Part shown: piece after piece, positions 3,784-25,765 of the stretch
Position numbering within the stretch: position 1 is the stretch's first letter
Layout: each line of letters starts with the position of its first letter
The notes under the pieces: generated by a model
Database searches by the model: none
Told to the model about the DNA's origin: nothing
Seen by the model: the letters and a program-made list of their open reading frames with translations, nothing else
IMG/VR virus record: IMGVR_UViG_3300032893_000241
Coordinates: 1 to 27,046 of that record
Source of the DNA: a virus
Reading direction: 5' to 3' (one strand)
DNA: 27,046 nucleotides
Translations under genes and position numbers: made by a program

Positions 3784-5364
3784 TTAGTACCTTGCCTTGA
3801 GTTTGTAGTCCATGAAGACGGAACTGAGCTGGTAGACCGCGCCGCTAGAGTATCCGGACAAGCCGACGTATTTTCCATACGCCGACGGGGTGCTGCTCGA
3901 GAAAAACAGATACTGACCGCTGTACCACGACACCGCGTTGTTGCCGCTGTTGACCCATGTGACGATGCCGCCACCGGCATTGGTCCATTGTACCGACGAG
4001 ATGTTCGGGGCGTTGGAGAACGACGACTTGCTGTTCGGCGTGTCAACGCTCGCGACGAACGTGCCGCTGATGGACGACACCACAAGCTCGAATCCCGCGC
4101 GGATCACCTGCTTGTCGGCAAGCGAGTCCTCCATGCCCCACAACGGGGTGGACCACTGGCTTGCGGGAGATGTCGTCCGGTCGGCGAACAACTGGTACAG
4201 CTTGTTGTCTATCAGCCCGAACAGAGCCGGGGCGTTGTTGACCATCCCCTGAGCGATGAACGTCAGGTTGCCGTAGTTGACGAAAAACCAACGGCCATTG
4301 AAGAAACACGCGAGGCTAGGCCCTTCGTCAAGGTCTTCCTGCCCGCTGACTTCTATGTCGTCCGGGCTGTGCCCACGGATGACGAGGAAGCACGCGCACA
4401 GGATATTCTGCACGACCGCGCAGCCACCGGAGATCTGCTGGCTGAAGTCGATGTACTGCCACGTCCCGTCGATGTCCTGAGACAGTCGCTGCACATCGAC
4501 GCCGCCCATAACCTGAGCGCCATAGCGGTTCGCGAACAGCACGTCTCTGCCGTACAGGAAAATCGACGCCGGCTGGTCGCAGCCGACGTTTGACTGGATG
4601 TTCGTGTTGCTGAACACGGGAGTCGGAGGAACTGCCGACGCTCCGGTCGTCGCGTTGGTCGGGATGTACACATCCGAGATGATGTTCCACGACGAACGGC
4701 CACCGATGTAGAGGTAGCCGTTCGCGCTCACCATCCGCACCACCGAGCCGCGCAACTGCGGGTCAGTGAGGTTTACCGTCGCGGCTCCGTTGACCGGCAG
4801 GAACGACGCTGCGGTGTAATCGTCGGGTCCCGACAGCGTGATTACACGTTCCTGAGCTATCCAGACACGCCCCTGGTAGACGGCGATGTCTGTTCCGTAA
4901 GACGGCACTCCGGGACCAGAGATCAGCACGAAACTCGTCCCGTCCCATGCGTAGTACCCGCTTGAGTCTATGAACAGGACCGCGGAGTTCTTCCACTGGT
5001 CCATCCGGCTGCCGGAGCCCGACAGCGGGGAGCCGGAGTTGATGAGAGTCGAGACCCCCGCCACGATGTCGTACTGGTAGATGTTCCCTGCCGTCGAGAA
5101 CAGGAACATGTAATCGACGTAGTTGAGGGTTGCGAACTGCGCCCAGTAGATCTCGTCCGTCGCATAGTCAACCAGGACTCCCGACACGTTCGGGACCGTG
5201 TGCAGGTTCGCATCGCCGATCGGGATCAGGTTGATGAGCTCGTACCAGTGGTCCTCCGGGCACGACACGCGCGATGCCTGCGTGAACACGCCCTTCCACT
5301 GGCGGAACGTCTTGTTGCGACGCTCAACCTCTTTTGGCTGCTGCTCTGCTTTGGTAGTAGCCAA
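3784..5364 (-). CDS. tail nozzle / packaged-DNA stabilisation protein (P22 gp10-like)
   Basis: 526 residues, rich in beta-forming repeats with recurring aromatic-Gly blades (for example IYQYDI, YYAWDG, YLYIGG, FFNGRWFF), consistent with a beta-propeller. P22 gp10 and related nozzle proteins are propellers of similar size and sit after the adaptor at the portal exit, matching this gene order. The only upstream in-frame initiator consistent with the conserved-looking N-terminus is TTG at 5364, with AAGG about 8 bases before it; the first internal ATG is over 100 residues in. It starts 9 bases after the adaptor stop. I rely on fold-like pattern and synteny, so the gp10 assignment is moderate; a generic virion structural protein is the fallback. 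Confidence 0.7.
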   Translation of the reverse strand: MATTKAEQQPKEVERRNKTFRQWKGVFTQASRVSCPEDHWYELINLIPIGDANLHTVPNVSGVLVDYATDEIYWAQFATLNYVDYMFLFSTAGNIYQYDIVAGVSTLINSGSPLSGSGSRMDQWKNSAVLFIDSSGYYAWDGTSFVLISGPGVPSYGTDIAVYQGRVWIAQERVITLSGPDDYTAASFLPVNGAATVNLTDPQLRGSVVRMVSANGYLYIGGRSSWNIISDVYIPTNATTGASAVPPTPVFSNTNIQSNVGCDQPASIFLYGRDVLFANRYGAQVMGGVDVQRLSQDIDGTWQYIDFSQQISGGCAVVQNILCACFLVIRGHSPDDIEVSGQEDLDEGPSLACFFNGRWFFVNYGNLTFIAQGMVNNAPALFGLIDNKLYQLFADRTTSPASQWSTPLWGMEDSLADKQVIRAGFELVVSSISGTFVASVDTPNSKSSFSNAPNISSVQWTNAGGGIVTWVNSGNNAVSWYSGQYLFFSSSTPSAYGKYVGLSGYSSGAVYQLSSVFMDYKLKARY

Positions 5365-5373
5365 GCGAGCGCC

Positions 5374-6009
5374 TTATGCGTAGACGCTCGGGATGATGCG
5401 GGTCTGCCACGCACGGGCAGTCATGAGCATCTGGGTGCGGTACTCGGCCTTGAACATGGCCGCCTCGGCCATAGACTGTTCCTTGAACTTCGCCAAGTAC
5501 GAGGCCCAGTACATGACGTTCTCGGTGAACGGCACGGGGATGGTCTCGGCCTGCGAGTCCGACACTAGGTCGGGCGGGTTCATCGCGCAGTCCCAGTCGG
5601 ACGTGTAGTTCTGGTTCGGGATAGGACCGATCAGGATGGTCGTCGCCCCAACGCGCGTGTACGCCGCGGGCTGTTGCTGGAGGTTGTTCCAGTAGCGGAG
5701 CTTGGCGTTGAACTCGGTCAGGGAGAAATAGATCAGCGGGTACCTCGTGTTCTGCAGGTACACGTTGATGTTCATGATGTCGATGATGTACGGACCCAGA
5801 ACAGGGTCGATCGTCTGAATGACGTACGACTCCTGCCCCATCTGCAGGGTGATGTTGGTCACGTACTGACGCAGGCACTTGGAGTCCTGGCAGACCCGGC
5901 GCCGCGCCTTGTTGATGTAGCCCGTCAGTTCCTGGTCGGACCAGAACTGATTGGTCGGATCGTGCAGGAGTTGGCGAGTGTCCGTCAGGTAACTATTGAG
6001 CGCACCCAC
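5374..6009 (-). CDS. head-to-tail adaptor protein (P22 gp4-like)
   Basis: 211 residues starting with GTG at 6009 behind an excellent AGGAGG, spacing 5. The N-terminus has the arrangement typical of podoviral head-tail connectors: T-R-x-L-L-H-D-P, then F-W-S-D-x-E-L-x-x-Y-I-N-K-A-R-R-R-V (residues about 11-40). The C-terminal half is helical with many Met, Ala and Gln (AEAAMFKAEYRTQMLM), as in ring-forming adaptors. It lies between the capsid genes and the nozzle-like gene, which is where the adaptor that docks under the portal is normally encoded. Assignment rests on pattern and synteny. Confidence 0.75.
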   Translation of the reverse strand: MGALNSYLTDTRQLLHDPTNQFWSDQELTGYINKARRRVCQDSKCLRQYVTNITLQMGQESYVIQTIDPVLGPYIIDIMNINVYLQNTRYPLIYFSLTEFNAKLRYWNNLQQQPAAYTRVGATTILIGPIPNQNYTSDWDCAMNPPDLVSDSQAETIPVPFTENVMYWASYLAKFKEQSMAEAAMFKAEYRTQMLMTARAWQTRIIPSVYA

Positions 6010-6019
6010 CTAATCCTCC

Positions 6020-6478
6020 TCACAACCTGCCATCGTCCTCCTGCTGCGGGGGTTTGCCGGCCGGCAAGCTGTGACCCTTGCCGACCGAACTCCCCACCGG
6101 CAGAGAAGAGGGGGCCAACTCTGATGCCGATACTGTCCGCGCCTTGGACGCCCGCGGCGCGCGATCCTGGCTCGTCGGTGCCTCGTCCTCATCCTCGTCC
6201 TCGTAGTCGGACCCGGGGATGTTCGGCACCGCATCGAACTTGATCTTGGCGAGCTCCGCGTACGCGGCTTCCAACTGGTCGCTGCTGGTCATCCAGCCAA
6301 GCCTCGCCATCGCGAAGGACTTGTCTTCCATGTCGAAACCGAACACATGCCTCGCCACGTTGACGTGTACGTCAACTGCCTTCTTCGGCGGGAATTCGTA
6401 GTCCACCCCGTCGAAGCGACCGCGGATCAGACGGTTCGTCCCGTTCGTGATCCGCACGTGATCCGAAAGATCAATCAT
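6020..6478 (-). CDS. hypothetical structural-region protein with acidic tail
   Basis: 152 residues from ATG 6478, preceded by GAGAGGGGG about 5 bases upstream. The frame extends further 5' but that part is Arg-rich and overlaps the upstream gene in another frame, so it was excluded. Residues 1-85 look globular (I-D-L-S-D-H-V-R-I-T-N, then D-Y-E-F-P-P-K-K-A-V-D-V) with a small beta-rich domain. Residues about 90-105 hold an acidic run (DYEDEDEDEA), followed by a Ser/Pro/Ala/Lys-rich disordered tail. It sits between a decoration-like gene and the adaptor, so a head-completion or neck role is plausible but unproven. Confidence 0.7.
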   Translation of the reverse strand: MIDLSDHVRITNGTNRLIRGRFDGVDYEFPPKKAVDVHVNVARHVFGFDMEDKSFAMARLGWMTSSDQLEAAYAELAKIKFDAVPNIPGSDYEDEDEDEAPTSQDRAPRASKARTVSASELAPSSLPVGSSVGKGHSLPAGKPPQQEDDGRL

Positions 6479-6494
6479 CACGGCCCCCTCTCGA

Positions 6495-7181
6495 TCAGGT
6501 GATGACGCTGAAGTAACTCGTCGACGTCGTGCCCGACGCCTCGATCGCGTAGTTGTACGGGTCGAGCCAGCCCTGGAACGACGTGCTCGCTGCAGCCGCT
6601 GCGCGCGCCTGCGGCGCAGTGGTCGGCGTCGTGCCACCCGCGAGTAGCGGAGTGATGACGCCATCGAGCATGTAGTTGTTCATCGCCGGGTAGTAGTTGA
6701 TGACGCAGTTCGCGCCAAGAACACACTGCACGTTCGCGGCCTGCACGAGCGGCGGCGGCTGCGGCGTGACGACCGTCGCGATCGTCTGCGTCGGGCCACC
6801 CGTGAAGCCAGAGAGCGGCTGCGCGATGAGCCACGGGAAGAACACCGCGATGCCCGTCAGCGACGTGACCGTCAGCGCCGACAGCGTGCTGTAGATCGTG
6901 ATCGCCGTCGTGCTCGGGATCGACAGGATGCGGAACGTGTTGCCGACTAGGATGCCGGTACCAGTCGGTGCCGACGTCGAGCCGCCGAACTTGATGAAGT
7001 AGTTTGGCGGCACGTTCGACGAAGGCGTCATGGTGAGGCCATGCGCCGCGTTGAACGTGATCGTGTTGATGTTGTTGGAAGAGGCGAACGTCGCGCCGGC
7101 ACCCGCAGGGATCGTGAACTGCGTGATCGTCTGCTCGGTCTGGAAGTCGAGCGCGGTGTTGGTAATCTTGAGGATTGACAT
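6495..7181 (-). CDS. putative capsid decoration / minor structural protein
   Basis: 228 residues, ATG at 7181 with AAGGAG 8 bases upstream; that ribosome-binding site overlaps the capsid gene stop codon, so the two genes are probably coupled. The sequence is Thr/Ser/Ile/Gly-rich and beta-like throughout (GILVGNTFRILSIPSTTAIT is typical), with few charged residues, resembling proteins that decorate or complete heads. Direct position after the major capsid gene supports this. Two Cys lie near residues 150-158. No recognised domain; the decoration role is inference. Confidence 0.65.
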   Translation of the reverse strand: MSILKITNTALDFQTEQTITQFTIPAGAGATFASSNNINTITFNAAHGLTMTPSSNVPPNYFIKFGGSTSAPTGTGILVGNTFRILSIPSTTAITIYSTLSALTVTSLTGIAVFFPWLIAQPLSGFTGGPTQTIATVVTPQPPPLVQAANVQCVLGANCVINYYPAMNNYMLDGVITPLLAGGTTPTTAPQARAAAAASTSFQGWLDPYNYAIEASGTTSTSYFSVIT

Positions 7182-7193
7182 GGTGGCTGCTCC

Positions 7194-8216
7194 TTACAGG
7201 GTGAGGAACGTGAAGCCACCGATGCGACTGCAAGTCTTCGGCTTCGTCAGCACCAACTCGCAGAGCGTCAGCACCACTCCGACGTACCCGATCTGGTAGT
7301 TAGAGATGAGGGATTCAAAGCCCGAAAAGGCGAAGGCTGCCATCTCGTGTACGTACAGATTGAGGTAGTTCGTATTGATGAGATACACCGTGCCTTCCGG
7401 GCAGTAGGGATCGGCGTAGATCGGCACACCGGCCACGTCGAGCGCGCGGAATGCGGAGCGCGGACGATCACCGTCGCTGTCGAATGCGCTGCCCGGGCCG
7501 ATGTTGTAGATCTCGCCGCCGGCCGAGCCGACGACGCCGATGAAGTCGTTGCTGAGTGAGGCGAACGTCCCGAAGCCGCAGACACCGAATGTCGGCATCT
7601 CGGCACCGTTGCGGTTCGTGCCGGCGATGTACTGAAAGATCTTCTGGCGCGTCGGGGCAACCGAGCCAGCCGCGTACACGCGCGACTGCCACCACGTGTT
7701 CGCCACGCGGTTGATGTTGCCGTACGTCGCCGCGTTCGTTGAGTCGTCCACCGCACCCGGCAGGCCGATCAACTGCTGCGTGTTCGTGCTGTTGTTGTAC
7801 ATCGCCTGCGACAGCGCGTCCGTCATCGAGTTGCCCGCGTCGTTCATGCGCGCTTCGATGATCGGCACGATCGCGTGGTCAAGCTGCACCGCACCTTCCA
7901 TGCCGAGGAACGGGATCGGCGTCACGACCGCCTTGAGGTTGAACTCGGCGAGCGACGCGCCCTGCTGCTGCCCCGGCTGGTTGAACGAGCCATCGTACCC
8001 AGTCCACTGGGTGTTGACGAAAGGCTGGCCCTGCACCGGGACAGAGATCGAGCTCACACCGCCGGATGCCGTCTGGGCATCGGCGAGCGCCGCGGCGAGA
8101 AGCGGCGACGTGTTGTAGATCTGGACGACGAGCTTCGGCACGAACGCGCGACGAGTCAATGCGGATAATTCGGCAAGCTGTGGTTGTCCCGGCATGATTC
8201 CGCTGGTGATGGGCAT
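7194..8216 (-). CDS. major capsid protein
   Basis: 340 residues, ATG at 8216 with GGAG about 7 bases upstream. The pattern agrees with HK97-fold capsid proteins of podo- and siphoviruses. It has an N-terminal region proposed as arm/E-loop with a VPVQGQPFVN-like strand, a long helical spine segment (residues about 115-145, with IIEARMNDAGNSM), and a conserved-looking C-terminal part with R-A-L-D-V-A-G-V-P-I-Y-A-D and an aromatic Y-L-N-L-Y-V-H-E-M segment. A scaffold-like gene lies immediately upstream and a decoration-like gene 12 bases downstream, as usual for capsid cassettes. There is no obvious N-terminal protease or maturation domain. Confidence comes from order plus residue pattern rather than from an alignment. 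Confidence 0.85.
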   Translation of the reverse strand: MPITSGIMPGQPQLAELSALTRRAFVPKLVVQIYNTSPLLAAALADAQTASGGVSSISVPVQGQPFVNTQWTGYDGSFNQPGQQQGASLAEFNLKAVVTPIPFLGMEGAVQLDHAIVPIIEARMNDAGNSMTDALSQAMYNNSTNTQQLIGLPGAVDDSTNAATYGNINRVANTWWQSRVYAAGSVAPTRQKIFQYIAGTNRNGAEMPTFGVCGFGTFASLSNDFIGVVGSAGGEIYNIGPGSAFDSDGDRPRSAFRALDVAGVPIYADPYCPEGTVYLINTNYLNLYVHEMAAFAFSGFESLISNYQIGYVGVVLTLCELVLTKPKTCSRIGGFTFLTL

Positions 8217-14601: not shown

Positions 14602-14812
14602 GTCGTCCTCCTTCTGCCTGCGCCTCCAATGCCGCCACCCTACTCCCCAACACCTCCACCATCAACAACACCCCCTCCAACCGCGCCCTCAACGCCCTCT
14701 CCCGCCACCCAGGCGCACCACTCTGCACCTCAGGATCAAACCACTCAGGTATGCGGTCTCTTTCACCGCGCTTCAACGGCCACCCTTGCGCGTCAAGTTG
14801 CACGTCGGACAC
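14462..14812 (-). CDS. putative coiled-coil protein overlapping neighbours
   Basis: Starting at GTG 14812, inside the end of the HNH gene, this frame gives about 116 residues. The first 70 look like real protein: Q-L-D-A-Q-G-W-P-L-K-R-G-E-R-D-R-I-P-E-W-F, then a helix-rich stretch A-R-L-E-G-V-L-L-M-V-E-V-L-G-S-R-V-A-A-L-E-A-Q. The last 45 residues are Gly/Arg low complexity, and this part overlaps the 66-residue gene. Ribosome-binding support for the GTG is weak; ATG at 14662, behind a GGAGGGGG tract, is another possible start. Either the C-terminal part is dispensable overlap or a sequencing frameshift hides an earlier stop. Confidence 0.4.
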   Translation of the reverse strand: MSDVQLDAQGWPLKRGERDRIPEWFDPEVQSGAPGWRERALRARLEGVLLMVEVLGSRVAALEAQAEGGRRGRVNGGRSVQRGGTRGVVGAAGRGGGRDTAGSRSRGRGGRGAGGD

Positions 14813-15159
14813 GCCAACACCAGATTCTGTCGGCCGTTGGCACCACCACGCACCAACGGCACCACATGATCCACATGATACCCACTGAACGCCAGTGACT
14901 TCTGACACCAGTGACACAACCCGTACTGCACCTCCCACAACCTCCGAATGTCACCCGCAATGAACGTGCCCCTGCCGATCGCACGCTCGCGTCTCCGATG
15001 CGCCGCCGCAGCGTTCACCGGCGCCCGACACTCCCGACACCACGAATCCCTCTGCACCCCCCTCCCAGTCCTAGACTCCCTCACCGCAAACTGACCACGC
15101 GCCTTCATCACGTGACACCGCGTGCACTCGAGCTTCAAACCATCGACCTTGCGGGACAT
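14773..15159 (-). CDS. HNH endonuclease
   Basis: 128 residues. Two zinc-type pairs precede the nuclease (C12, C15 and C41, C44). The HNH core spans residues about 74-122: C82-x-x-C85, then Y-H-V-D-H (H95, D97, H98), P-L-V-R-G-G-A-N, N112 and L-A-C-P-T-C-N (C117, C120, N121). HNH proteins next to terminase genes assist DNA cutting during packaging in several phages (for example HK97 gp74), which fits its place at the head of the late operon. ATG 15159 was chosen because it keeps the first Cys pair; the frame extends upstream, but that part is GC-rich, low in protein character and lacks a ribosome-binding site. A free-standing homing HNH is the alternative. Confidence 0.85.
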   Translation of the reverse strand: MSRKVDGLKLECTRCHVMKARGQFAVRESRTGRGVQRDSWCRECRAPVNAAAAHRRRERAIGRGTFIAGDIRRLWEVQYGLCHWCQKSLAFSGYHVDHVVPLVRGGANGRQNLVLACPTCNLTRKGGR

Positions 15160-15647
15160 GCTTGACTTATAACACGGACACGAATTTTTTTGGGGGAACA
15201 CCCGTTTCCGGGTTGGGGGGAGATCAAGGTGAGGCCAAAGCCCAAGCCGCGGCGGCGGCCCATCGAGCCGCGAGCCCCCCTCCTCGGATCGCACGGCGGT
15301 CGCGCCGAGCGGCGGTAGCTGGGAACTCCGATCCGGCGCCGCGCCGCCCTCAGACACGCGCGATCCGAGCCGGCTAGGCGGCCTGTCAGCATGGCCCATG
15401 AGGCCCAGCGCCCCATGTTGCGACGCATCTAAGCATTAGCCTTACGCACCCTTACAGGGCAAGCAAATATCAAAGACTTGCGCGCGTCACTGTTCCAAAT
15501 AGTCCGCATTTACCAAAAAGCGACGTACCACCTACCACCTCGATTGTGACAGTGGTACTAGGCAAGCCCATGACGAGCCACGGGAAAAACCACCTAACCA
15601 CCTTTACCACCTATTTCCGCAAACTCTACACGAAATAATATGCACGC

Positions 15648-15666
15648 TGCATAAAAGTTATGCACG
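15648..15666. promoter_or_regulatory. perfect dyad TGCATAA-N3-TTATGCA with DnaA-box-like arm
   Basis: Seven-base arms at 15648-15654 and 15658-15664 flank the spacer AAG. The right arm extends to TTATGCACG (15658-15666), one mismatch from the DnaA-box consensus TTATNCACA. A second TATGCACG lies just left, at 15639-15646. Its place among the iteron-like repeats suggests an origin or operator. Confidence 0.5.
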
Positions 15667-15768
15667 GGTAGCGACTCAGGCGGGCCATGTGCGTATATAG
15701 GTGGGGTGGTAGACATAGCAGGGTATACATACACTTACCCTATACCACCTGTAGATAGAGGTAGGGCA

Positions 15769-15796
15769 TGGTTAAAGTAAGTCATTGATTTAACCA
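15769..15796. promoter_or_regulatory. 8-bp dyad TGGTTAAA-N12-TTTAACCA, putative operator
   Basis: Arms at 15769-15776 and 15789-15796 are perfect inverted copies with centres 20 bp apart, about two helical turns, which suits a dimeric repressor bound on one DNA face. The right arm overlaps a WACCACCT copy (15792-15799) and the promoter-like element at 15785-15812. Confidence 0.5.
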
Positions 15797-15812
15797 CCTG
15801 ATGCTCTATAGA
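15785..15812 (+). promoter_or_regulatory. candidate early rightward promoter
   Basis: TTGATT (15785-15790, 4 of 6 to the sigma70 -35 box), a 16-base spacer and TATAGA (15807-15812, 4 of 6 to the -10 box) point toward the early block, with the first ATG 110 bases downstream. The spacer contains a WACCACCT copy and one arm of the 8-bp dyad, so a bound regulator would block polymerase. The match is moderate. Confidence 0.35.
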
Positions 15813-15922
15813 CGTTCCTGTATAGATAGACATACGTATAAGTACTAATAGACGTGTATTGAGCGATGACGATACTAGGCGACGTTGATTGATATACACC
15901 GATAACGAGAGAGGTTAAGACC

Positions 15923-16730: not shown

Positions 16731-16922
16731 ATGAATACCAATCAGCACCGCGAACCGACGTGGGAAAATCAGCTTTGGCACGCTAACCGGCTGGCGGATG
16801 AAAAGGGACTCGCGGCCCTGTATAGCCCGCACGCGGCAACGGGTCGCATCTGCGGATGTGGTCGTTGTTTCTGCTGCGCGGCCCTGCACGTCTATAACGA
16901 GCGCCGCAAGGGGGCCGCATGA
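16731..16922 (+). CDS. small Cys-rich hypothetical protein
   Basis: 63 residues, ATG at 16731, with AAGGGAT about 7 bases before it. The N-terminal half is helical and polar (N-Q-L-W-H-A-N-R-L-A-D-E-K-G-L-A). A tight cluster, I-C-G-C-G-R-C-F-C-C-A (Cys at 41, 43, 46, 48 and 49), could bind zinc or another metal. The stop overlaps the start of the HTH gene (ATGA), suggesting co-translation with the regulator. Function unknown. Confidence 0.65.
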   Translation: MNTNQHREPTWENQLWHANRLADEKGLAALYSPHAATGRICGCGRCFCCAALHVYNERRKGAA

Positions 16923-17577: not shown

Positions 17578-18456
17578 ATGATTCGTGCTTATCATTTCGT
17601 CGGCGCAACACTGCGCGACGGCAGCGCCGTACCGCCGGATGGCGAATGGCTCACTTTCGACGGCGAGCCCGTCATGTGCAAGCGCGGGCTGCACGCCAGC
17701 CGCGACCCGTTCGACGCGCTGCAATACGCACCGGGCAATACGCTTTGCTTGGTCGAGTGCGATGGGACAGTTATCGAAGGCGATGACAAGCTCGTTTGCA
17801 CTCGCCGCCGCATCATCGCGCGGTTCGATGCCGAGGACATGCTGCGAGCGTTCGCGAGGGCCGACGCTCTGACCGTCGCGCATCTGTGGGACATGCCCGC
17901 AATCGTCCGCGAGTATCTAACGACCGGAGATGAGAAGATCCGGGCCACCGCGAGTGCCGCCGCAAGGGCCGCCGCAAGGGCCGCCGCGAGGGCCGCCGCG
18001 AGTGCCGCCGCGAGTGCCACCGCGAGTGCCGCCGAGAGGGACGCCGCGTGGGCCACCGCGAGTGCCGCCGCGAGTGCCGCCGAGAGTGCCGCCGCGAGTG
18101 CCGCCGCAAGGGCCGCCGCGTGGGCCACCGCGAGTGCCGCCGCGAGGGCCGCCGCGTGGGCCACCGCGAGTGCCACCGCGAGTGCCGCCGAGAGGGACGC
18201 CGCGTGGGCCGCCGCGAGGGCCGCCGCGAGTGCCACCGCGAGTGCCGCCGAGAGGGACGCCGCGAGGGACGCCGCGAGGGCCGCCGCGAGTGCCACCGCG
18301 AGTGCCGCCGAGAGTGCCGCCGCAAGGGCCGCCGCAAGGGCCGCCGCGAGGGCCGCCGAGAGTGCCGCCGCTAGGGACGCCGCGTGGGCCGCCGCGAGGG
18401 CCGCCAGCAGAGTCCGATTCAACGCGATGGTAGCGGAGCGGTTCGCGGGGGTCTAA
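17578..18456 (+). CDS. DUF7666-like protein with alanine-rich tandem-repeat tail
   Basis: 292 residues, ATG at 17578 with AAGGGG upstream. Residues 1-120 form a small domain with [20 protein letters not shown], a [14 protein letters not shown] strand and V-R-E-Y-L, resembling an uncharacterised phage domain that I associate with DUF7666. Residues 123-278 are 39 tetrapeptide units of Ala with Arg, Ser, Thr, Glu, Trp or Asp inserted, probably one long helix. The last 14 residues return to ordinary sequence. All six frames are open through the repeat, but only this one has a ribosome-binding site and an N-terminal domain. The stop overlaps that of the convergent primase gene. Function unknown. 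Confidence 0.7.
17944..18411 (+). repeat. 39 tandem copies of a 12-bp coding repeat
   Basis: The unit is G(C/A)C-(G/A)CC-(GCG/GCA/GAG)-(AGT/AGG/TGG), with one GCT variant near the end and a degenerate last unit. GAC in the first position follows GAG-AGG in several units, giving a larger 36-bp pattern (ACC unit, then GAG-AGG unit, then GAC unit) that recurs three times. Because the unit is a multiple of three and lacks stops in any frame, copy number could change without breaking the gene. Confidence 0.9.
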
Positions 18457-20801
18457 AATACAAGCGGGTCGTCGCTTTCATGGTCGGGGTGATCCCCTAA
18501 AGCCTCGGTGCTGTCGGCTACAGTCGACGGCGCCGGGGTTTCTTTTTGTCCAGGTGGACGCCGGTATGCCTTGGCACCTTCGCGCACGGTACGCGACCAC
18601 CCGTTAGCGCGCAGCACCGACGCCACCCGCATCTGCGCCGAGCGTGTCATCTGGGTCGCGGGGAACTCGAGCGCGGCCAGCACGTCGGCGGTATGCACGT
18701 ATTCGCGGAACTTGACGAACTCCAGAATGCGCGACTCGAGCGGGTCTTCTTCCCGCCTTTCTTCCTGATGCCGCCGGGCCTCGCCCTCGGGGACCTGGTA
18801 CCAGTCCCCGCCCTCTTGGATGTCGTGCAGGGCCTCTGCAAAGAGCTGGTCCCGGTTCGCGGCGATATAGTCAAGGTCCGCCATCGTGCAGCGCACCGGC
18901 CAGAACCGGCGCCCGCCGGTCGGGTCGCTGAGCCATTCATCGCTGTTTGTCGTCCCGGCGAGCACCTGACGCCGTGGCGCGGACAGGACCGAGCGCCCGT
19001 AGGCGGGGCGGAACCGGTCGTGGCGGTTGCTGATCGCGCCCTTGATGCGCTCGATGTCGGCCGCGCGCATCCCGTTAAGCTCGGAGATCTCGACCAGCCA
19101 CAGGCCCTGTATGGCCTCCTGCCAGCGAAGGGTCCCGATGGTCTCGTGGACCTCGGAGAAGTATGGCTCGGCCAGAGCCCGCAGCGCCGAAGACTTGCCG
19201 AGCCCCTGCAACCCCTCAAGAACCATGACATGATCTTGCTGGCAGCCTGGCCGCGTTGCTCGAGCGACCATAGACCGCAGGAACCGGGAGCCGACCGCGA
19301 AGTGATAGGCGTCCGAAGGCGTCCCGAATACCGTGGGCAGGAACCGCTCGCACCTGGGCTTGCCGTCCCATAGGAGACTGTGCAGCCACTCGGTCAGGAC
19401 GTTGCGCTTGTTCTCGCGCGCGAAGGTCATCGCGGCGTCCCTGACGATGCGGGTCTGCATCCGAGGTATCCCGATGTCCCGCTGCATGTAGATCGTGGCC
19501 GCGAAGTCGTCCGTGTCGGCCCATTCCCGGGGGCGGTTCTCGCCCGGCGGTATCCAGAGGACCCGGTTCAGGAACTCATCATACCAAGGCCGGTACTGCG
19601 GGGAGCGGTCAAAGATGCGGACCGCGTTGTCCAGGTTCTCATGCGGGCCGCGGTTCGATTGTGTGAGCCCCCATTCGGTCCACAAGGCGGCCTGAGAGCC
19701 GATCGCGCCCTCGGTGATGACCGTTACCCCATCGTCCTCCGGGGGCGTCTCGCGCCTCATGGCGAGCTCGTGGGACGGCGGGATGAGGGGGATACGGCCG
19801 ACCTCCTCGATACGCGGCTTCGCCCACTTCCCCGCCTCGGTCACGGGGATCGTCAGGTCCGCGGCGTCGGCCTTGGGCGGGCAGTCGTCCACCCTGAGGC
19901 GCCAGACCTTGCAGGCCCAATCGTTGATCAGGTGCTCGGCGAGCCGCGCCATAGCCTCGTGGCCTGGCTGGTCGTTGTCGGGCCAGAGGATCACGTCGCG
20001 CTTCTCAAGCGGGCGCCACTCGGCGCGCATGACGCGCGCGACGCCGCCCTGCCAGGTCACGACCGGCTGCCGCGGGAAATACCGCATTGCAGCATGGGCG
20101 GCCTTCTCGCCCTCGACCACGATCACGCGGCCGGGCAGGGCGAGGGACGGGAGGTTGTAGAGGGGCGCTGGGGAGGGGCCGCCCTTCATCTGCCAATAGC
20201 CGCCCTTGCCCTCAGTGCCGGGGTGCCAGGTCCACGGGCAGAAGGTCTTGCCGTCCGCATCGGGCTCGTAGCGGCAGACGACCATCAGCAGGCGGCTGTC
20301 GCGATTGCGGTAGGCGTAGACGTGGGACGGGAGTCCGTGCTTCGGGTGCTTGAACGTGATGGGGGTGAGTGGGGCGTCCTCCGGTGGGAGGATGACGGGC
20401 GGTGACGGCGGGCGGCCGGCTTTCTTGTCGGCGGCGCGGGATACCGCTACCCGTGTATCGAAACTGCCGCTTGACGACCGGCCTGTGTCCTGATCCAGCT
20501 CCTTGAACGCCTCGGCCTGGGTAATGCCGTGGATCGCGGCGTAGAGGGAGATCAGGTCGCCGCCCTTGTCGCCGGTCGCGAAGTCGGCCCACATGCCGGT
20601 CTCGAGGTTAATGCCGAAGGACTTGCCCGCGGAGCCATTGAGCCCGCCCGCGCGCCATTCCTTGCCCTCGCGCTTGCCCTTGGGAAGCCACCTACTGACG
20701 TGCATCTCGGCATTGGACAGGAGGATCTGGGCGAGCGCGGGGAAGTCCATTAGCTGCTCCGACAGAGCTTGGTTGTAGTAGGGGTCGTCGATGATGGTCA
20801 T
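18453..20801 (-). CDS. Toprim primase fused to VapE-type SF3 helicase
   Basis: 782 residues. Residues about 45-105 resemble a primase N-terminal zinc-ribbon fold ([15 protein letters not shown], then G-G-D-L-I-S-L-Y) but lack its cysteines. A Toprim domain follows: [11 protein letters not shown] at 226-236 and D-V-I-L-W-P-D-N-D at 269-277. Residues about 470-640 match the virulence-associated E helicase family: W-L-H-S-L-L-W-D-G, Walker [10 protein letters not shown] at 529-537, the block V-E-I-S-E-L-N, and A-G-T-T-N with an [11 protein letters not shown] tail. Such proteins prime and unwind phage DNA. It is the last gene of the minus-strand replication block, overlaps the upstream zinc gene (ATGA), and converges on the repeat gene. 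Confidence 0.9.
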
Positions 20802-25532: not shown

Positions 25533-25765
25533 ATATGACGCTCAAGGAACTCATGGATTGGCTCGCTGAGATCCAGAAGATCGCAGGTGACGCCACCGTG
25601 ACCAATGTCGCCGCCATCAGACTTGAGGGCGCTACCACCTTGGACTACAGAGACCGATACAACTACGGCTACGGCCGCGAAGGTAAGCGCGCGCGCCGTC
25701 TGACGGTGCTGTTTGATGTGCCGCAGTTTGTCGAAGCAACTGATCTACGGTCAGCACAACCATGA
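25529..25765 (+). CDS. small hypothetical protein with acidic/Tyr-rich region
   Basis: 78 residues from GTG 25529 (overlapping stop) or ATG 25535, two codons later. It starts with a helix, T-L-K-E-L-M-D-W-L-A-E-I-Q-K-I-A-G-D-A. A beta-like part follows, with a Tyr-rich segment L-D-Y-R-D-R-Y-N-Y-G-Y-G-R and a strand R-L-T-V-L-F-D-V. I recall similar short phage proteins near recombination genes but no function. The stop overlaps the next ATG. Confidence 0.65.
   Translation: MNMTLKELMDWLAEIQKIAGDATVTNVAAIRLEGATTLDYRDRYNYGYGREGKRARRLTVLFDVPQFVEATDLRSAQP

Follow-up and report, generated by a model that had tools for sequence, protein, structure and literature searches.

The C-terminal domain of SaPI Rep recognises iterons located directly downstream of its own gene, to which the protein appears to bind as two hexamers (PMC7581432), and PICI origins, in which an AT-rich region has an iteron set on either side, support the replication of plasmids (PMC6092414). 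The pRN1 primase-helicase carries a C-terminal winged helix, with an origin downstream of the gene that is active even when displaced, and the alpha protein of phage P4 combines a TOPRIM-type primase, a ring helicase, and a repeat-reading C-terminal winged helix in one protein (PMC4234260). The window analysed here (the whole 27-kb stretch of an IMG/VR virus record, which is linear and probably incomplete) contains at 15526-15799 an array of the repeat WACCACCT that is very likely a theta-type replication origin of a phage, with the repeats serving as iterons read by the C-terminal winged helix of a VapE-type primase-helicase. The preliminary description called the array the best candidate for a previously undescribed control element, which is true in part, because the SaPI/PICI origins make the kind of origin known; the distance of 2.65 kb from vapE is unusual, and it is well supported that this is a candidate origin in a phage group where, in the sources consulted, none had been pointed out. 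Literature searches on vapE and origins recovered work on SaPI, PICI, SCCmec, and pRN1, and found no publication combining vapE, phage, iteron, and origin of replication; coverage of subscription papers was poor, and an earlier description is possible.

The repeat array and its genomic setting

As first described, the array lies between divergent blocks. The leftward genes encode HNH, terminase, portal, and major capsid proteins, with nearest annotated relatives in two Manatee Spring phages (45-63% identity), and the rightward early side encodes the VapE-type primase-helicase, a helicase, a YqaJ-type exonuclease, and RecT. The HNH gene (14773..15159, minus strand) adjoins small genes and the terminase gene and marks the conserved flank of the putative origin. 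A scan of genome contigs found a terminase relative in one alphaproteobacterial MAG and gave no clear host. On the early side, an ORF at 17578-18456 (292 aa, Ala/Arg/Ser-rich) contains approximately 39 copies of the 12-bp repeat GGGCCGCCGCGA at 17942-18405.

Seven copies of WACCACCT, all on the plus strand, were confirmed by the sequence and by motif counting, as were the overlap and the close packing first reported. Two copies of TACCACCT (15526..15533 and 15533..15540) have one base in common, and a triplet with 8- and 9-base steps is formed by AACCACCT at 15588..15595, AACCACCT at 15596..15603, and TACCACCT at 15605..15612. These five direct copies are separated by an 86-bp spacer (15613..15698, 47% GC) from a right-hand set comprising TACCACCT at 15743..15750, AACCACCT at 15792..15799, and one weak inverted iteron, AGGTGGGGTGGTA (15699..15711, minus strand). 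The inverted variant noted earlier is thus present but imperfect, with a position weight matrix score of 0.52 of the maximum.

The whole window contains eight copies of WACCACCT against 0.80 expected, and eight or more were reached in none of 100 shuffles; the eighth copy, at 25633, is inside an open frame, leaving seven of the eight in the spacer between the gene blocks. Between 15401 and 15922, ACCACCT is present seven times, compared with a mean of 0.07 and a maximum of 2 in 5000 shuffles. A short motif in a compositionally distinct spacer might cluster by chance or through low complexity, with no function, but this explanation is extremely improbable considering that, beyond the window shuffles, shuffling the spacer 3000 times never brought any 7-mer to six copies, and that relatives have analogous arrays at the same place.

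The base composition of the region agrees with its earlier designation as the most AT-rich stretch, since the lowest-GC 125-bp segments of the contig start at 15716-15781 (37-39% GC versus 62.8% overall). This minimum is to the right of the central spacer, in a stretch spanning 15713..15922 (GC about 36-44%). The cumulative GC skew also has its minimum at ~15.5 kb, in agreement with an origin at this location but confounded with gene direction. Searches run on the window for intrinsic terminators and Rfam families found none. The central spacer includes a palindrome, TATGCAcgcTGCATA, at 15638-15653 and a third TATGCA at 15659, and TATGCACG is mildly enriched.

An origin driven by host DnaA, in which the WACCACCT repeats would be accessory, could make use of TTATGCACG at 15658 and the TATGCA palindrome in the spacer. 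However, the repeats are unlike DnaA boxes, matches to TTATNCACA with at most one mismatch are fewer in the window than expected (4 versus 6.2) with only one of the four in the spacer, and vapE supplies a helicase and primase of the phage's own, making a DnaA-driven origin highly implausible; the same count of DnaA-like 9-mers makes DnaA a poor candidate for a ligand of the array.

A C-run followed by an A-run is conserved ~35-90 bp upstream of the HNH start in the window (15186-15251) and in loci L174, L175, L104, L178, L013, L018, and L086, and several relatives have contigs that stop 77-143 bp upstream of HNH, which makes this region a candidate genome end (cos). A packaging site (cos/pac), with the repeats bound by the small terminase near the genome end, would accord with these contig ends and with the HNH and terminase genes that adjoin the array. 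It is nevertheless very unlikely to account for the repeats, as a distance of at least about 220 bp, on the HNH side, separates the array from both the contig ends and the C-run/A-run motif, and other groups with vapE keep the array with that gene in their contigs, not with the terminase. A second candidate origin may lie beyond the window, which is fragmentary.

Arrays beside vapE and in virion-type relatives

Repeat arrays are linked to vapE in viral contigs generally. An alignment-based scan of IMG/VR yielded 80 vapE loci, and for the 66 distinct vapE genes analysed, significant 7-mer arrays were counted in a 400-bp frame slid around the vapE stop codons. At 0 to +400, 37 of 62 loci had a significant array, and at -200 to +200, 32 of 64 did; each of the other offsets between -8 and +7.4 kb from the stop gave 0-2 such loci. 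Amongst noncoding gaps of at least 200 bp, significant arrays were present in 14 of 17 located directly 3' of vapE versus 4 of 65 elsewhere (Fisher p=8e-10). The linked motifs are loosely related, with (G/T)(T/A)ACC(A)C(C)T as their approximate common form and near-matches to the motif of the window in L287 (GTTACCACC), L314 (GTAACCACC), L289 (TGACCACC), and L272 (TAACCACCT), and the repeats occur as pairs and triplets at 8-10 bp steps on either side of a gap of some 60-130 bp. In 31 of 50 vapE origins, the two repeat sets have opposite majority senses; in the window, by contrast, the right set is weak and mostly has the same orientation as the left set.

A reverse search of IMG/VR, for triplets of ACCACCT stepped by 8-10 bp, gave at least 120 stretches, most of which resemble 9-bp in-frame coding repeats, and those used were noncoding or adjacent to vapE. 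The triple ACCACCT adjoins vapE in at least six contigs (L357, L364, L397, L415, L426, and L432), in all of which the repeats form two sets 3' of vapE. A seventh noncoding case among the matches listed, L442, has an array at 5024-5170 (four direct and two inverted ACCACCT) directly 3' of a 671-aa P-loop ORF (5184-7199) that is an apparent primase-helicase and had no VapE match by tblastn.

The association with vapE also bears on whether the repeats are an operator array, through which a phage regulator (e.g., the HTH proteins at 16919 or 25082) would regulate transcription of the divergent early and late units. Such a role would suit the position of the array between divergent blocks and the HTH_17/AlpA-like proteins encoded in the window, and Xis/AlpA-type proteins can bind direct repeats cooperatively. 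In most vapE loci, however, the array follows vapE on its 3' side instead of separating divergent genes, the vapE loci with arrays yielded no homologues of the 16919 and 25082 proteins, and sigma-70-like promoters in the window are not above chance. An operator array is therefore unlikely, and the two HTH proteins are not supported as ligands; promoter repression could be a side effect of initiator binding. The comparison with the vapE loci instead strongly supports the other function first suggested for the repeats, that of probable replication-origin iterons.

In relatives of the same virion type, the motif at this place is replaced. The WACCACCT array is absent from every terminase/capsid locus fetched, and no close relative was found to combine this 8-mer with matching flanks; the exact 8-mer is missing because the motif changes between relatives. 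The three loci that reach through the spacer have other repeats in the corresponding position, some 350-480 bp upstream of the HNH start: GGTTCAT at 8-bp steps in L018, CCCTGTGACC-type repeats in L023, and CTCCCC/ATCCCTA in two sets flanking a 30% GC stretch in L086. VapE adjoins the array region in L023 and L086, and the L018 contig ends short of vapE. Displacement of the array from vapE, as in the window, is also seen in L086, L023, and the Burkholderia phage Mica. Conservation in relatives, proposed in the preliminary description as a check, thus fails for the exact 8-mer and holds for a differently spelled array at the same place, and taking absence of the array from close relatives as evidence against it would have been misleading.

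No VapE was found in L009 and L010, and their junctions between early and late genes show no array. Repeats in L010 (5660-6000), L066, L163, and L169 were set aside on account of their coding or low-complexity appearance. L089, where VapE was likewise not found, has three tandem GGATAACAT-like repeats (5297-5330) and a DnaA-box-like TGTGGATAAC at about 5480, which may be an origin of another type within this virion group. A peptide deformylase-like gene is present between the HNH and terminase genes of L018 (1327-1839).

VapE, the proposed initiator

VapE (18453..20801, minus strand), a fused primase and self-loading helicase, matches Pfam PF05272 (E=4.9e-63) and PHROG primase/helicase families, the latter match spanning residues 35-315. 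Residues 426-695 match PDB 7pds by sequence (E=6e-29), and EGEKAA and WPDND motifs were spotted by eye. The AlphaFold2 model of residues 400-782 has a mean pLDDT of 91, and by fold it is closest to the six chains of 7pds (PriRep1 with dsDNA; TM 0.73-0.75, E=2.5e-23). The C-terminal winged-helix domain (18561..18737, minus strand; about residues 689-747), the proposed iteron reader, is predicted as helix-helix-helix-strand-strand with a pLDDT of about 95, followed by a disordered tail. A single-sequence scan of IMG/VR found no close relatives of VapE or of the 15923 protein.

The repeat motif co-varies with the C-terminal domain across vapE loci. In a partial Mantel test on 928 divergent pairs from 46 vapE loci, motif similarity was correlated with C-terminal identity after helicase-core identity had been removed (r=0.18; 0 of 1000 permutations). 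The correlation is small, but its direction is as would be expected if the C-terminal domain reads the iterons. Of the ligands named in the preliminary description, the primase (18453-20801) is probably the right one.

Proposed mechanism and comparison with known systems

The mechanism proposed here is modelled on SaPI Rep (PMC7581432). By analogy, VapE would form hexamers on both iteron sets (left, 15526-15612; right, 15699-15799), melt AT-rich DNA that lies between them or to one side, and load itself as a helicase; the N-terminal primase part of VapE would then prime, with replication running outward. Initial melting or loading is presumed to take place in the spacer at 15613..15698, which is comparable with the ~60-130 bp central gaps of other vapE origins, and the most AT-rich stretch (15713..15922) would be an alternative melting region.

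The apparent generality of the vapE-iteron linkage is of wider interest. That most of the 66 distinct viral loci have an array beside vapE points to one initiator-origin system common to phage satellites and ordinary phages, and offers an easy way to find origins in uncultivated phages as well as a testable code of protein-DNA recognition. It is probable, with appreciable room for doubt, that an iteron origin read by the winged helix of the primase-helicase is the standard replication module of vapE-carrying tailed phages in general, in which fast-changing iterons match a fast-changing reading domain, and that some groups have had their origin shifted to the early/late junction. If so, phages would have a SaPI-like replicon-specificity code and the sequence of an origin would be predictable from that of its VapE.

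Amongst the described systems, pRN1-type replicons share with the window a primase-helicase with a C-terminal winged helix and an origin downstream of the gene, but pRN1 uses a long stem-loop, whereas the folding potential of the window array is weak (z=-2.0, slightly better than shuffles). The P4 alpha origin is similar in its repeats and may be so in the fusion of a TOPRIM-type primase, ring helicase, and C-terminal winged helix, which in the window protein is suggested by the PHROG match, the two motifs spotted by eye, and the AlphaFold2 model; it differs in that the helicase part of the window protein is VapE-type (PF05272), with PriRep1 as the closest fold, and in that no crr-like second site was identified in the window. 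Burkholderia phage Mica (NC_054148; L171) has the same arrangement of vapE, further genes, and then two-set repeats around an AT-rich stretch, with a TGTCACC array at 41490-41695 that lies 2.8 kb downstream of vapE, ahead of the late block. Its motif and virion genes are other than those of the window, and the record gives these repeats no origin annotation; the Mica array is an origin candidate in a cultured phage.

The closest counterparts are the rep-ori modules of SaPIs and PICIs (SaPI PriRep1, SaPI5 Rep, and EcCICFT073 pri-rep-ori). The window element is not a PICI, because it has capsid, portal, and terminase genes of its own, and it represents a tailed phage and no satellite. Its putative origin does not lie directly 3' of the initiator gene, as SaPI/PICI origins do, but is 2.65 kb from the vapE end at 18453, with opposite-strand genes in between, and its right set is weak and mostly direct. 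The window and the SaPI/PICI modules nevertheless have in common an initiator of the Rep/VapE self-loading ring family with the primase-helicase fold of 7pds and a C-terminal domain that binds DNA, or in the window is predicted to, together with multiple short direct repeats near the rep gene; the flanking of an AT-rich stretch by two iteron sets may be shared as well (PMC6092414, PMC7581432).
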